A stretch of DNA of 21,749 nt from a virus: IMG/VR virus record IMGVR_UViG_3300027896_002719, positions 1 to 21,749 of that record. One strand, 5' to 3'. Numbering within the stretch: the first letter of the stretch is position 1; each line of letters starts with the position of its first letter. The position numbers and the translations under genes were made by a program. Below the pieces are notes generated by a model. It had not been told where the DNA came from, ran no database searches, and worked only from the letters and a program-made list of their open reading frames with translations. Positions 16,056 through 21,749 of this stretch are shown one piece after another.

Positions 16056-16274
16056 TTACGAAGTCTCCTTGATGCACTCGTACTGCTTTTTCACGTTCAT
16101 CAAGAAGAAATGCCCCACCGACGGCACCTCCATCAGGGCGTCATAGACCGGCCGGGTGACCCCCCGGTAGATGTACGTCCCGCCTTTATGGAACTGGACG
16201 TGAAGCTCTTCTTGCGCTTCGTCATAGCCAACGGCTTTGATGAGGGATGAGGTTACAGGGGTCAACTCAGTCAT
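16056..16274 (-). CDS. KTSC-domain protein (72 aa)
   Basis: This is a nearly complete KTSC domain. After MTELTPV come SSLIKAVGYDEAQEELHV, FHKGGTYIYRGV, VYDALMEVPSVGHFFLM, and VKKQYEC. The SS.I...GYD....L.V.F..G..Y.Y..V......L..A.S.G..F match runs almost end to end. KTSC proteins are small and widespread in phages and bacteria, and some are fused to DNA- or RNA-binding domains; the biochemical role is unproven. It overlaps the RyR-domain gene upstream by four bases (ATGA), so the two are co-translated. Confidence 0.85.
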   Translation of the reverse strand: MTELTPVTSSLIKAVGYDEAQEELHVQFHKGGTYIYRGVTRPVYDALMEVPSVGHFFLMNVKKQYECIKETS

Positions 16275-16621
16275 GTCAGCATCCCCCTCAAGCTATCGAC
16301 CACCGCTTTAAATAAGTGGTCTTTTGCCCGTTGTTCCGGAGGAAGGGCCGCAAAAGGCATCATGCACGGGTGCTCCTTCTTCTCGGCGTTCTTCATGGGG
16401 CCGTACTTCCAACCGTCCGCCGTCTTCATATCCCGCCACGATTCATGCGATGCCCGCGGCGGAGCGTCCGGGTTCTCCAGGTGAAATTTCACGCCGGCCC
16501 GGTTAACGTCCTTCTGCCACTCCGGGGCCGAATCCCAGGGGCCGAACGAACGATCCCCCAGGGCCTCGCAGTACGCCCGGTTCACGTTATAGGTGGTTCT
16601 GGCAATGTCCTCTCTGGTCAT
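16271..16621 (-). CDS. RyR-domain protein (116 aa)
   Basis: This 116-aa protein is essentially a single RyR domain, named from ryanodine receptors but common in phage and bacterial small proteins. It shows PEWQKDVNRAGVKFHLENP, ASHESWRDMKTADGWKYGP, KNAEKKEHPCMMPFAALPP and EQRAKDHLFKAVVDSL, the expected 'W.......GW.YG...D...K.HP....Y..LP......D..F...V' progression. GGAGG lies 6 bases before ATG 16621. Phage and bacterial RyR proteins are proposed to bind nucleotide-derived ligands such as cyclic dinucleotides or ADP-ribose products; that is an idea from the literature, not shown here. It is coupled by ATGA to the KTSC gene downstream. Confidence 0.85.
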   Translation of the reverse strand: MTREDIARTTYNVNRAYCEALGDRSFGPWDSAPEWQKDVNRAGVKFHLENPDAPPRASHESWRDMKTADGWKYGPMKNAEKKEHPCMMPFAALPPEQRAKDHLFKAVVDSLRGMLT

Positions 16622-16857
16622 GATGTTCCTCCTTTGACAAGATAGACCGGCGCCAACGATTCGATCATGTGCGCCAGGTCCGGGTCGATCTTTCGCATGG
16701 CCTGGATCAGGCGAAGTTCTGAAATCCTGGTCGGGGCAGGGGGAATCGAACCCCCGGCTTCCGGCTCCCAGGGCCGGCGCTCTACCTCTGAGCTACACCC
16801 CGATTTAGGGGAATTGCCCAACTCCATCGCTCGCCGGGCAAATTTGCCAATGGTCAT
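16618..16857 (-). CDS. Doubtful 79-aa ORF that contains a tRNA gene
   Basis: A frame from ATG 16857 to TGA 16618 is coupled by ATGA overlap at both ends (to 16854 upstream and to the RyR gene downstream). It opens MTIGKFARRAMELGNSPKSG and closes ISELRLIQAMRKIDPDLAHM, then ESLAPVYLVKGGTS. Both ends look protein-like. Its middle third, however, is the tRNA-Pro gene at 16728-16802 read in frame. Either the real gene is only the short 3' part (for example from ATG 16698, 26 aa), or the tRNA landed in an older gene without breaking the frame. The ATGA links argue that some product is made. I cannot choose between these. Confidence 0.35.
   Translation of the reverse strand: MTIGKFARRAMELGNSPKSGCSSEVERRPWEPEAGGSIPPAPTRISELRLIQAMRKIDPDLAHMIESLAPVYLVKGGTS
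16728..16802 (-). tRNA. tRNA-Pro (UGG) with encoded CCA and C33
   Basis: On the minus strand the 75 bases fold as a complete cloverleaf. Acceptor stem CGGGGTG pairs with TGCCCCG (two G-U pairs), D stem GCTC with GAGC, anticodon stem CCGGC with GCCGG, and T stem GGGGG with CCCCC around TTCGATT. Discriminator A73 and CCA follow, so the 3' end is encoded. The 7-base anticodon loop is CCTGGGA, giving anticodon TGG and G37. The C1-G72 pair and G37 are proline hallmarks. Position 33 is C where nearly all tRNAs have U. No dedicated promoter is seen; it is probably cut from the operon transcript. Confidence 0.88.
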
Positions 16858-17848: not shown

Positions 17849-18240
17849 GGGGAAAATGAAGGAATGTGTTGGCCCACCCCCTCTGCCCGCCTCTCGCTCC
17901 CCTCACCCCGGCCTGCTACCCCTCCCCAGCGCCTATCTCTCAGGAGAAAGCGTGTGGCGCTTCCCTGCAGGGTGTTCAAGCAGGGGACATAGGGAGATTT
18001 TCGAGGTGAAATTTTTGGGGGATCGAATGATAGGGGGGGGGTGTTGACAGAATTGACAAGTAGGAAATCGGGAAAAATTTGTGGAGGAAGTATTGCATCT
18101 CGCAGGGGGGGTATCCGCCGTCCCGGGTTTTGCACATTGGGCCAAAAAACTGGTGGACCTGGTGGGGGCATGGGCAGGGCCAGGCAGGGGTGAACGTGAC
18201 AAGTGATTGAGGCATGATAGGCAGGTGGCAGGGGTAGGGG
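17849..18240. other. Gene-free region with skewed G/C runs
   Basis: No convincing gene is visible between the promoter and the repeats at 18241. Long frames here encode only Pro/Cys/Leu-rich low-complexity strings without ribosome binding sites. On the plus strand the sequence is C-rich up to about 17935, then G-rich with runs of nine G (near 18033-18041) and seven G. A potential hairpin pairs AGCGCC (17928-17933) with GGCGCT (17956-17961), enclosing TCTC and GAGA arms. CCCTGCAGGG (17964-17973) is a perfect palindrome. TGATAGGCAGG occurs twice near 18217 and 18243. The role may be regulatory or a replication or packaging site; none is proven. Confidence 0.4.
18044..18059 (+). repeat. 16-bp motif, copy 2 (operator candidate)
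   Basis: The plus strand reads TTGACAGAATTGACAA, 14 of 16 identical to the copy at 17833-17848 in opposite orientation. No good -10 box follows at 16-18 bases, so it is probably a protein-binding site rather than a promoter. Confidence 0.35.
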
Positions 18241-18273
18241 CCTTGATAGGCAGGCATGGCGCACCTATCAAGG
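18241..18273. repeat. 10-bp perfect inverted repeat
   Basis: CCTTGATAGG (18241-18250) and CCTATCAAGG (18264-18273) are perfect inverted copies separated by 13 bases. It lies next to the larger hairpin at 18278 and could be a binding site for a dimeric protein or part of a branched RNA. Confidence 0.55.
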
Positions 18274-18277
18274 CTTG

Positions 18278-18305
18278 AGGTCCACATATAGGTATATGTG
18301 GACCT
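18278..18305 (-). terminator. 12-bp perfect hairpin at the end of the small terminase gene
   Basis: AGGTCCACATAT (18278-18289), a 4-base loop and ATATGTGGACCT (18294-18305) form a perfect 12-bp stem. Its outer end overlaps the TAG stop codon of the gene at 18304. No T-run follows on the minus strand, so it is not a classical intrinsic terminator. It may stabilise the mRNA 3' end or bind a protein such as terminase. Confidence 0.45.
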
Positions 18306-19071
18306 ATTTAGTTATCATTATAGGCTTGGTTGAGGTAGGGAGCGCCTTAATCTCCCCCTGGCTGGGCGGCAGGGGCGGCGCACCTGGTAGGCTGGCCGTG
18401 GTTCCTGGCTGACCATGGCCTTCGAAGATGATAGTTACCCCTCCGGCACCTTCAAGCTGTTCTTTGGTGAGACCAAGGATTTTCGCTATCTGAGTATAGG
18501 CATTGAGGCGGACCATATCGGACCTGGACGTTTTTGCTAACTCAATCAATCCATTAGCGACAAAGACCTCGCCCGCTCCCATTGCCCGGAAGATAATTCG
18601 ATGATCCTGTGCCTGTGATTCATACCTTTGCACCAGATTTCTTCCCAACCTGTAAAGATAGGCCTCACTATATTCCACATAACCAGCTAATATCATTGAC
18701 TGAATCATAGAATTTCCCCCTACCAGATAATTACTAATGAACCTAAGTTCTCTATCGGTAAGGATATCCTTTAACTTACTGGAATCATTACTATTATAGA
18801 CAATATTGATATATACTTTCTCCGATTCATTAAAATTATCAATAGGTTGGGCAGGTTGGGCGACGGTTTCAGGTTGAGGTTTTAGCTTTTTGTCGGGCAA
18901 GTTATTGGAATTATTAAGAGATTTTGATATATTGGGTAATTTACCTAATGGTTTTATGTACTTAGGCAGTTTAGGTGCAAGAGCTTGGGCGATTGCTTCA
19001 CGGGTAGAAACCTTTCCTTTCTTGTTTTTACCATCTAACCAATTAGATTTATTACCTTTCTTATCTTTCAT
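18304..19071 (-). CDS. terS: Terminase small subunit-like protein
   Basis: This 255-aa protein probably recognises viral DNA for packaging. The N-terminal 85 residues are a low-complexity, basic, Asn/Lys/Pro-rich linker (KGNKSNWLDGKNKKGKVST). A helix-turn-helix-type region starts at residue 105: LTDRELRFISNYLVGGNS, SMILAGYVEYSEAYLYRLGR, matching the 'LT..E..F...Y......A...AGY' start of many small terminases. Then come helices with LIELAKTSRSDMVRLNAYTQ, IAKILGLTKEQLEG, and the closing beta segment GVTIIFEGHGQPG, again typical. GGGGGGAG lies 6 bases before the ATG. The gene is conspicuously AT-rich in its middle compared with its neighbours, and it lies 4.2 kb from terL. The family call is moderately firm. 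Confidence 0.65.
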   Translation of the reverse strand: MKDKKGNKSNWLDGKNKKGKVSTREAIAQALAPKLPKYIKPLGKLPNISKSLNNSNNLPDKKLKPQPETVAQPAQPIDNFNESEKVYINIVYNSNDSSKLKDILTDRELRFISNYLVGGNSMIQSMILAGYVEYSEAYLYRLGRNLVQRYESQAQDHRIIFRAMGAGEVFVANGLIELAKTSRSDMVRLNAYTQIAKILGLTKEQLEGAGGVTIIFEGHGQPGTTASLPGAPPLPPSQGEIKALPTSTKPIMITK

Positions 19072-19263: not shown

Positions 19264-19292
19264 TTGACAGATATATACGGAGTATATAAAAT
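19264..19292 (+). promoter_or_regulatory. Sigma70-like promoter with palindromic operator, upstream of the MoxR gene
   Basis: TTGACA (19264-19269), a 17-base spacer and TAAAAT (19287-19292) match the sigma70 consensus at 6/6 and 5/6. The spacer holds the perfect palindrome TATATAC GGA GTATATA (19272-19288), which touches the -10 box, as expected of a repressor site. Transcription would start near 19299 and give a leader of about 340 nt before the MoxR gene. Confidence 0.65.
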
Positions 19293-19298
19293 AAGCAT

Positions 19299-19641
19299 AA
19301 CGATTAACAATAACAACTTGCTCAACTTGTTCATTGACAAATAGGGAAGCGGCGGGACCGGGAGAGTAACAAAGGCATCAAGGCGGAGACGGCGCAAGGC
19401 AGGCAGGCCGAGAAACCTTGAAGGCGGACCGGGAGCAAAGCGGACCTTATACAGACAAGGTGGACCCGGGAGAGGAGCGAAGACCCTACGGGACGGACAA
19501 AACACCTTGTAACTAACCCCTGGGAAAGTGGCCAGGGCCGGGAGGACCAGGTTTTTGACTTTCACCATGTCCAGGCTTTGCTTTATCCCCTGGCCATGGA
19601 TGAGCGCCAAAAATCAGATTATGGAAAGGGAGGGATAAGCC
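19299..19641 (+). promoter_or_regulatory. Long structured 5' leader of the MoxR gene
   Basis: No convincing gene lies in this stretch; with the AT-rich 19072-19263 it makes a 570-bp divergent intergenic region. It contains several inverted repeats: TCAAGG/CCTTGA (19378-19383, 19416-19421), ACAAGGTG/CACCTTGT (19455-19462, 19503-19510, perfect 8 bp), and TGGCCAGGG/CCCTGGCCA (19529-19537, 19588-19596, perfect 9 bp). Up to four degenerate copies of an element like GCGGACCGGGAG occur at about 19353, 19383, 19424 and 19460. It may act as a regulatory RNA, or be processed into one. Confidence 0.45.
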
Positions 19642-20637
19642 ATGAAACCAAGTCAATTAACTGCATTATTGGCTAAGACGATACCGGGGCGGAAACCTGT
19701 ATTGATTAAAGGAGCGCCGGGAATTGGAAAGACGGACGTTGTAACCCAAGCGTGCCAAGCGGCGGGAGCTAACCTCATCGTTTCTCACCCCGTGGTAAGT
19801 GACCCGATTGATTTCAAGGGTATGCCATTTGTTTCTGACGGCCGCGCCGACTTCTTGCCATTTGGCGACTTGCGGAAGCTGATTGAAGCGCAAACCTCAA
19901 CCGTCTTTTTCCTTGATGATTTAGGCCAGGCTCCCCCGACCGTACAAGCGGCGGCTATGCAGTTGATACTTGCCAGGCGAATCAACGGCCATAAGGTGGC
20001 GGACGTGGTGACGTTCATTGCTGCCACGAACCGGAAGCAGGACAAGGCCGGGGTGAGCGGGATACTTGAGCCCGTAAAATCCCGGTTTGCGACCATTATT
20101 GAGTTGACCCCTGATTTGGAAGATTGGGTAAGCTGGGCACTCAGGGCAGGTTTGCCGACTGAGTTGATCGCCTTTATCCGATTCCGCCCGGCATTGCTTC
20201 ACAATTTCACCCCGACCGCAGATATCACTAACACCCCTTGCCCGCGGACCGTGGCCAACGTGGGCGGGCTCATGGGTTTGGGGCTCACCCCTGACCTGGA
20301 ATTTGAAGCGTACTCCGGGGCGGCTGGCGAGGGATTCGCGGCGGAGTTGATGGGCTTCTTGCGGATTTTTCGGAACCTCCCGAACCCCGACGCGGTGTTA
20401 CTGAATCCAGAAACGGCGGACGTGCCCACGGCCCCCGCGACCTTGTACGCGCTGGCCGGGGCACTCGCCCGGAAAGCATCAGAAAACACCATGGACCGAT
20501 TGACCCGGTACGCGCTCAGGTTACCGGCGGAATTCCAAGTGCTCTTGATCCGGGACGCGGTGCGGCATGATGGGCAGGTGGTAAATACCAGGGCTTTTAT
20601 AGACTGGGCATCGAAAAACACTGAAGTCCTCATCTAA
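19642..20637 (+). CDS. MoxR-type AAA+ ATPase
   Basis: This 331-aa protein is a MoxR-family AAA+ ATPase, a chaperone-like motor that usually works with a VWA-domain partner to activate or remodel protein complexes. Walker A is GAPGIGKT (residues 24-31), Walker B is VFFLDDLGQAP (88-98), sensor 1 is FIAATNR (125-131, N130), and an arginine-finger region reads EPVKSRF (144-149). The HPVVSDPIDFKGMPF insert before Walker B is a MoxR hallmark. GGGAGGGA precedes the ATG. Phage versions often stand beside a VWA/CobT-like gene; here the next genes are a small unknown protein, an HNH nuclease and a truncated conserved-looking protein, so the partner may lie beyond the window. Confidence 0.88.
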   Translation: MKPSQLTALLAKTIPGRKPVLIKGAPGIGKTDVVTQACQAAGANLIVSHPVVSDPIDFKGMPFVSDGRADFLPFGDLRKLIEAQTSTVFFLDDLGQAPPTVQAAAMQLILARRINGHKVADVVTFIAATNRKQDKAGVSGILEPVKSRFATIIELTPDLEDWVSWALRAGLPTELIAFIRFRPALLHNFTPTADITNTPCPRTVANVGGLMGLGLTPDLEFEAYSGAAGEGFAAELMGFLRIFRNLPNPDAVLLNPETADVPTAPATLYALAGALARKASENTMDRLTRYALRLPAEFQVLLIRDAVRHDGQVVNTRAFIDWASKNTEVLI

Positions 20638-20641
20638 ATGG

Positions 20642-20670
20642 TTGACATCCTCTAATGAAAAAAATATTAT
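20642..20670 (+). promoter_or_regulatory. Near-consensus sigma70 promoter
   Basis: TTGACA (20642-20647) and TATTAT (20665-20670) are 17 bases apart, a 6/6 and 5/6 match. It begins 5 bases after the MoxR stop codon. Transcription should start near 20677, giving a leader of about 155 nt before the 68-aa gene, which contains the branched RNA at 20744-20820. Confidence 0.7.
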
Positions 20671-20743
20671 GGAGTTGTCGAAACAACCTTACCGGGAGGC
20701 CCCCCGCAATGGGCGCTTTTTGTTTATCCACCAAAACTAAAAT

Positions 20744-20820
20744 GTCCCGAGTGTCCCGGTGTCCGCGAGGTCCGGGGAGGTGTGTAAGGCACCTTGACAG
20801 CACTCGGGACTTTTCTTTTT
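20744..20820 (+). promoter_or_regulatory. Three-way-junction RNA with a T-tract (attenuator/terminator-like)
   Basis: The closing stem is a perfect 10-bp pair, GTCCCGAGTG (20744-20753) with CACTCGGGAC (20801-20810). Inside it are two hairpins: CCCGG/CCGGG (20755-20759, 20772-20776) and AGGTG/CACCT (20778-20782, 20790-20794) with a 7-base loop. TTTTCTTTTT (20811-20820) follows directly, and GGAGG for the next gene comes right after. The layout is that of a branched intrinsic terminator or attenuator just upstream of a coding region. No known riboswitch class is recognised. Confidence 0.6.
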
Positions 20821-20830
20821 GGAGGATGTC

Positions 20831-21037
20831 ATGGAAAAGAAGACCCCTGCATTAAGTCTGGAAGTCTCATCTAAAGTCGGCAATTCCTTAAATCTCATCA
20901 AAGCTCTGGGTGATTCCCTGGTTTGTATCGGAATCGCCAAGAACCAAGCCAGCTTACTTGATGGCACCCTTCAAAACTTGGGGCTCCTCATCATCGACCA
21001 GGTGAATGAGTTGGGCTCATCCCTGGGGGTGATCTGA
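20831..21037 (+). CDS. Small hypothetical helical protein (68 aa)
   Basis: ATG 20831 follows GGAGG by 5 bases and lies just beyond the T-tract of the structured leader. The 68-aa product (MEKKTPALSLEVSSKVGNSL, then LNLIKALGDSLVCIGIA and LDGTLQNLGLLIIDQVNELG) is helical with regular Leu/Ile spacing, perhaps a small bundle. No family is recognised. Its stop overlaps the HNH gene start by one base (TGATG). Being the first gene behind a strong promoter and an attenuator-like element suggests tightly controlled expression. Confidence 0.6.
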   Translation: MEKKTPALSLEVSSKVGNSLNLIKALGDSLVCIGIAKNQASLLDGTLQNLGLLIIDQVNELGSSLGVI

Positions 21038-21591
21038 TGCAAGATGAAATCTGGAAAACTCACCCGTACCATACTGACTATGAAATCTCTAACCTTGGCC
21101 GCGTTAAAAGACGCACCCCAGCTAAAGGAACGCGGCCGGGGCTCATCATGCGTCAAACAACAAACCGATTCGGCTACCGCAAAATAGGGTTAATGGTGAA
21201 CGGAAAGCAGAAACTTATAAGCGTCCATACCCTTGTACTTGAAACCTTTGTGGGTCCGAAACCTGACGGCTATATCTGTAACCATAAGGACGGCGTAAAA
21301 GCCAAAAATCAAGCATCAAACCTTGAATGGGTAACTTATGCTGAGAATACCAAACACGCCATTACCACAGGCTTAAAACCGATTAATCCTGATGCAGTAT
21401 ACCGGCAGCCTAAGAAGGGCAGGCCAACGGGCGAACGAGTTGGAACAGCCAAACTCACAAATGAGGACGTACTACAAATAAAAGAACTTTTGGCTAAAGG
21501 ATTTTCTCAACGGAAAATCGCCAAAATGTTCAAGGTTGCTCAATGCACCATTACTGACATCAATAAAAAGAGGACTTGGCAACATATTTAA
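21037..21591 (+). CDS. HNH endonuclease with NUMOD4 and C-terminal helix-turn-helix (homing-type)
   Basis: This 184-aa protein is a homing-type nuclease that cuts DNA to spread its own gene. Residues 1-50 form a NUMOD4-like DNA-binding segment (WKTHPYHTDYEISNLGRVKR). Residues about 60-105 form the HNH_3-type nuclease (SVHTLVLETFVG with H64, YICNHKDGVKAKN with N82-H83, SNLEWVTYAENT). The C-terminal part is a helix-turn-helix (KLTNEDVLQIKELLAKG, SQRKIAKMFKVAQCTI). Its ATG is coupled to the upstream gene by TGATG overlap. It stands between the MoxR module genes and looks like an inserted selfish gene that may have taken over that start site. Confidence 0.88.
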   Translation: MQDEIWKTHPYHTDYEISNLGRVKRRTPAKGTRPGLIMRQTTNRFGYRKIGLMVNGKQKLISVHTLVLETFVGPKPDGYICNHKDGVKAKNQASNLEWVTYAENTKHAITTGLKPINPDAVYRQPKKGRPTGERVGTAKLTNEDVLQIKELLAKGFSQRKIAKMFKVAQCTITDINKKRTWQHI

Positions 21592-21605
21592 AGGAGACAA
21601 AGACC

Positions 21606-21749
21606 ATGAGCGCAAATCTGACAGAAAAGGCCATGCTGGTTAAGTTGTCAATCTCCAAGTGGAGCGCCCGGAAATACGACAAGAAAGTCAGCGCGGAGGT
21701 GGCGGACCAGTACGGGACCGACCAGGAACGCGGCCGTTATAACAAGGTC
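21606..21749 (+). CDS. Conserved-looking phage protein next to the MoxR module (5' part only)
   Basis: The frame starts at ATG 21606, with GGAG 10 bases upstream, and runs off the window with 48 codons visible. It begins MSANLTEKAMLVKLSISKWS and continues ARKYDKKVSAEVADQYG then ERGRYNKV. The 'MLVKLSIS.W..RK.DK' opening resembles DUF3150-type proteins that accompany MoxR and CobT/VWA genes in phages. That match is from memory and rests on few residues, so it is tentative. Its place after MoxR and HNH fits the module. Confidence 0.5.
   Translation, partial: MSANLTEKAMLVKLSISKWSARKYDKKVSAEVADQYGTDQERGRYNKV

Follow-up and report, generated by a model that had tools for sequence, protein, structure and literature searches.

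The record IMGVR_UViG_3300027896_002719 is a 21.7-kb virus record in IMG/VR, and the whole of it, positions 1-21,749, is the window analyzed here. Its minus strand carries head and packaging genes, and a rightward module begins at about 19.2 kb. This module includes a gene for a MoxR-like AAA ATPase (19642-20637, plus strand; phrog_1297, E 1.6e-67; Pfam AAA_5), which lies directly upstream of the cassette of interest. Two genes make up the coding part of the cassette, a small ORF of 68 aa (20831-21037, plus strand; ATG at 20831, TGA at 21035-21037) and an HNH endonuclease gene (21037-21591, plus strand) whose product combines NUMOD4 and HNH_3 domains with a helix-turn-helix end. The stop codon of the first and the start codon of the second overlap as TGATG. 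The GC content of the HNH gene is 44%, compared with 55-59% for most of its neighbors. Protein searches with the small ORF found no relatives in IMG/VR, in phages, in genomes or in 22 related records. Beyond the HNH gene lies the next gene of the module, whose start alone is inside the window (21606-21749, plus strand). In the structural half, the minus strand also holds a tRNA gene (16731-16802), identified by an Rfam match and overlapped by mechanically called ORFs, and a gene for a phage RyR-domain protein (16271-16621; Pfam PF02026, E 5.7e-10).

An initial annotation of this DNA had proposed a promoter with 6/6 and 5/6 hexamer matches upstream of the small ORF. We found this promoter at 20642-20670 on the plus strand, a few bases past the ATPase stop codon, as the sigma-70-type sequence TTGACA-17-TATTAT with a spacer of 17 nt; judging from the spacing, transcription would be expected to start at about 20677. 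Sites matching at least 11 of the 12 consensus positions are rare, with only two in the whole window, at 19264 and 20642, both on the plus strand, against a mean of 0.09 in shuffled sequence. The other near-consensus promoter, TTGACA-17-TAAAAT (19264-19292, plus strand), precedes the ATPase gene, from which it is separated by a 350-nt untranslated leader without unusual structure (z -0.16), and it would supply read-through transcripts into the cassette. The motif (A/C)CCGGGAG recurs in both leaders (19357-19472 and 20691-20698), and the window contains 7 motifs of the CCGGGAG type versus 3.1 expected, a mild enrichment only. A small inverted repeat, GTTGT-CGAA-ACAAC (20674-20687), spans the expected transcription start and is possibly an operator.

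The branched hairpin and its T-tract

Between the promoter and the small ORF lies a three-way-junction hairpin (20744-20810, plus strand), in which a perfect 10-bp closing stem, GTCCCGAGTG / CACTCGGGAC (20744-20753/20801-20810), encloses two inner hairpins. The T-tract TTTTCTTTTT (20811-20820, plus strand), 9 of whose 10 nt are T, follows directly 3' of the closing stem, and a ribosome binding site comes next. All of these parts had been described beforehand and all are present, with one amendment, in that the stem is longer than the 10 bp first recognized. The fold of 20740-20820 has a predicted energy of -40.4 kcal/mol (z -5.2). When the fold is extended to 20725-20828, the stem reaches 25 bp, including pairing of the T-tract and of the Shine-Dalgarno (SD) sequence through AAAA/TTTT, CCAAAA/TTTTGG and TATCC/GGATG, and the energy is -52.4 kcal/mol (z -6.4), with 0 of 200 shuffles as good.

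We scanned the record in 104-nt windows, and the leader was the best window on the plus strand (z -6.0). The sole site with a better score was a double hairpin near 18240 on the minus strand. There, at 18202-18341, two consecutive long hairpins form the most over-structured 104-nt window of the record (z -6.9); the first is a 28-nt near-palindrome, AGGTCCACATATAGGTATATGTGGACCT, that overlaps the end of the gene at 18304-19071, and the second is GCCTTGATAGG...CCTATCAAGGC.

A GC-rich stem followed directly by a U-tract is the arrangement of an intrinsic terminator. The d-score, a d'Aubenton Carafa-type score, was +22, favoring termination, and the T-tract score was 4.55. A simple terminator scanner misses the hairpin because it allows only loops of 3-8 nt. 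The leader shares with intrinsic, and in particular bidirectional, terminators the GC-rich stem, the T-tract, a complementary 5' A-tract and stable folding of both strands, its minus strand also folding stably. It differs from simple intrinsic terminators in that the hairpin is 67 nt long and branched and its stem continues into the SD. As a prediction, the earlier suggestion that a branched intrinsic terminator precedes a small gene is well supported by the fold z-score and the d-score. If termination takes place here, the 3' end of the RNA would be expected at about 20815-20820, giving a product of about 140 nt, and the short abundant RNA offered in the initial annotation as an alternative is possible.

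Two segments complementary to the Shine-Dalgarno sequence

The SD of the small ORF, GGAGG (20821-20825, plus strand), was predicted to be paired both in transcripts from the cassette promoter and in read-through transcripts from upstream. Its partner within the leader is a 5' arm, AAAACTAAAA (20725-20742, plus strand), which consists of the anti-SD (T)ATCCACC and an A-tract and pairs with 20811-20828: ATCCaCC (20726-20732) pairs with the SD segment GGaGGAT (20821-20827), and the A-tract pairs with the T-tract. Taken alone, this outer part is weak, with 102 of 5000 shuffles as good, modestly better than chance and not significant when the whole leader is considered.

A second anti-SD, overlooked in the initial annotation, was found further upstream. 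This is TGACATCCTC (20643-20652, plus strand), part of which falls in the -35 hexamer. It is perfectly complementary to GAGGATGTCA (20822-20831), which covers the SD and start, and the two form a 10-bp inverted repeat. The duplex of the upstream arm with the segment 20811-20833 had a predicted energy of -22.7 kcal/mol versus a shuffle mean of -9.4, and 1 of 5000 shuffles was as good. Because transcripts from the cassette promoter would start at about 20677, this arm should be carried only on read-through RNA from upstream.

We modeled transcripts starting at 20500, 20560 and 20630, and in all three the SD had a pairing probability of about 1. The predicted cost of opening the SD was about 11 kcal/mol in own-promoter and read-through transcripts alike, with a pairing probability of about 1 in both. 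Which helix wins on read-through RNA varies in the model with the chosen ends, and with longer upstream context the in-leader helix is favored over the read-through helix. The opening cost for the small ORF ranks third among the 28 putative gene starts of this GC-rich window, so SD burial alone is no proof of control.

The inverted repeat could also be read at the level of DNA, as the 10-bp terminal repeats of a small mobile element or as a pair of operators bound by a repressor, since its perfect arms flank the promoter and leader. We consider this extremely unlikely, given that both arms already serve as -35 region or SD, that there is no clean target duplication, and that no copies were found among phage or plasmid records. 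The sole exact match to the inverted repeat in IMG/VR, in record L050, was rejected as chance, because one of its arms falls within an unrelated coding gene and the sequence between the arms differs.

Searches for relatives and for an attenuator

No relative of the leader was found in IMG/VR, in phage or plasmid records, or in the loci that we fetched, and an exact-stem search gave no match in IMG/VR or in 84,980 bacterial and archaeal genomes. Relatives of the HNH gene in IMG/VR (9 loci) had no similar leader in the 450 nt upstream, and neither did the downstream gaps of 14 close relatives of the ATPase gene. A single-sequence covariance model matched the window itself only; models of this kind pick up no more than close homologues, and an empty result says little without a positive control. 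The searches for relatives as a group reach close DNA or exact peptide stretches only, so an undiscovered relative is possible.

These results bear on the proposal that the leader belongs to an undescribed class of riboswitch or attenuator, in which an antiterminator form would be stabilized by a ligand, a protein or a tRNA. The order of promoter, structured leader, terminator and gene is the one seen in attenuators and riboswitches that end in an intrinsic terminator, and an alternative pairing between ACCGGGA (20691-20697) and TCCCGGT (20754-20760) dominates modeled partial transcripts that still lack the 3' arm. That alternative fold nevertheless yields to the terminator once the 3' arm has been made (-39.7 to -52.7 kcal/mol). 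As long as the 3' arm is missing, the available fold is no more stable than those of shuffled sequence (z -0.48), which means that no evolved antiterminator is visible and that a mutually exclusive antiterminator fold beyond chance was not found. In Rfam 15 only the tRNA elsewhere in the window exceeded the gathering threshold, and the best match in the leader scored 18.8 bits versus 55. Compared with known attenuators and riboswitches, the leader matches no aptamer family, lacks an antiterminator fold of any significance, and shows no conservation or covariation in the collections searched. The gene downstream of it, an orphan ORF with a coupled HNH endonuclease gene, is neither metabolic nor of any other kind that would suggest a ligand. 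The expectation that the same stem layout would stand upstream of homologues was not borne out in the searched collections, and the riboswitch proposal falls short at this point because relatives are absent and not because relatives contradict it. We consider regulated attenuation of this kind very unlikely, and the locus adds no riboswitch class.

A candidate control leader for the endonuclease cassette

The reading that we favor, with moderate confidence, is that this region serves as the control leader for an inserted phage endonuclease cassette extending from 20638 to about 21600. The best account of the modeled pairings is a leader that combines a terminator with masking of the ribosome binding site, which would keep the HNH cassette mostly off and leave a 140-nt RNA or thereabouts. 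The strong sigma-70 promoter would make a leader whose long branched stem acts as an intrinsic terminator, and most transcripts would end near 20815-20820 as the short RNA. A polymerase that passed the terminator would produce a message in which the SD is paired to the anti-SD at the base of the stem. Transcripts of the ATPase operon would carry the second anti-SD, the stronger of the two, since the cassette promoter's -35 region is complementary to the segment covering the SD and start. By default, the small ORF and its coupled HNH gene would be off or translated at a very low level, and such silence, which may serve to quiet a homing endonuclease, would limit harm to the surrounding operon. 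The gate might be opened by RNase III cleavage, by translation of a leader ORF, or by a phage antiterminator. Counting against this reading, the output of a strong promoter placed before a strong terminator would be wasted unless the short RNA is useful or the terminator leaky.

A rival reading is that the locus is a stand-alone phage small RNA gene, whose RNA of about 140 nt acts in trans or binds a protein and whose downstream gene is incidental. The promoter at 20642 and the terminator at 20810-20820 do form a complete intergenic unit, and its RNA is much more stably folded than chance would give. An independent RNA would have no need, however, of an SD inside its stem or of a second anti-SD in its -35 region; the searches found neither a known family nor relatives for it; and neither the small ORF nor the HNH gene would then have a strong promoter of its own, there being no other site of at least 11/12. 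We regard a stand-alone RNA as possible, though rather doubtful.

Control by translation of the leader was considered separately. A leader ORF of 48 codons (ATG at 20709, stop at 20853-20855, plus strand), preceded by the SD GGGAGG (20694-20699), crosses the whole stem and ends shortly past the start codon of the small ORF, and ribosomes translating it could unfold the terminator and so expose the small ORF's SD. Open frames of 48 codons are common by chance, the SD of the leader ORF is itself predicted to be paired, and relatives and codon evidence are lacking, so we think it very improbable that the leader works in this way. A more elaborate form of the control leader, which we consider unlikely, would be doubly locked: a segment of the leader and the -35 region would compete for pairing with the 20-nt segment comprising the T-tract, SD and start, so that transcript origin, termination and masking of the ribosome binding site would be integrated in one element, possibly opened by a phage-specific factor.

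Known endonuclease genes offer an analogy for the control leader that we favor. In T4 I-TevI, I-TevII, I-TevIII and segB and in Aeh1 mobE, RNA structures mask the ribosome binding site on upstream transcripts, and an internal promoter is placed so that the gene's own transcripts omit the 5' arm (PMC2988022, PMC3014915). As in those cases, an endonuclease gene (here NUMOD4/HNH_3) is embedded in a foreign phage operon, the SD is paired on modeled upstream transcripts, and a promoter of the cassette's own sits at the 5' arm of the structure that hides the SD on them. The masked SD here belongs instead to the preceding small ORF, to which the HNH gene is coupled; the leader adds a terminator-like three-way junction with a T-tract; and the promoter is sigma-70-like, unlike a T4 late promoter. 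Because the SD also stays paired in the modeled own-promoter transcript, where the in-leader anti-SD is predicted to hide it, we regard the leader as analogous to the T4/Aeh1 hairpins and do not claim membership in that type.

The phage leaders of lambda N and T7 0.3 are freed by RNase III cleavage. They resemble the present leader in that a long stem covers the SD or lies immediately upstream of it; they differ in that the T-tract here sits within the stem.

If the control leader is real, this would be a case of an endonuclease cassette with its own promoter and a silencing RNA in a phage that, to judge from its genes, is not T4-like; the -35 region would encode an anti-SD, and the mask would include a terminator. 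Quieting of endonuclease genes by RNA structure would then not be peculiar to T4-like phages. We give the finding modest weight despite the strong structure and neat arrangement, because only one sequence is at hand and analogues of it are known.

Support for insertion of the cassette came from the same locus in other records. In four relatives (L005, L006, L013 and L016) a homologue of the ATPase gene (48-55% identical) lies about 25-70 bp from a homologue of the 21606 gene, and in other relatives different small ORFs occupy this gap. Against it, both the sizes and the contents of the gap differ among relatives, as at a variable locus and not at a single clean empty site. The short gap in four relatives, the different small ORFs in others and the low GC content of the HNH gene together suggest that promoter, leader, small ORF and HNH gene arrived as a unit. 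No Intron_gpI match was found around the HNH gene (20600-21610), and the ATPase gene ends before the cassette. In another relative, L025, an HNH gene (1140-2000; protein 41% identical) interrupts the ATPase gene near the conserved DPxDxKG motif, from which it appears that HNH genes of this kind visit the locus repeatedly. A sub-threshold group I intron match of 18.8 bits lies at 1927-1955 of that record, and the insert is probably an intron in the ATPase gene.
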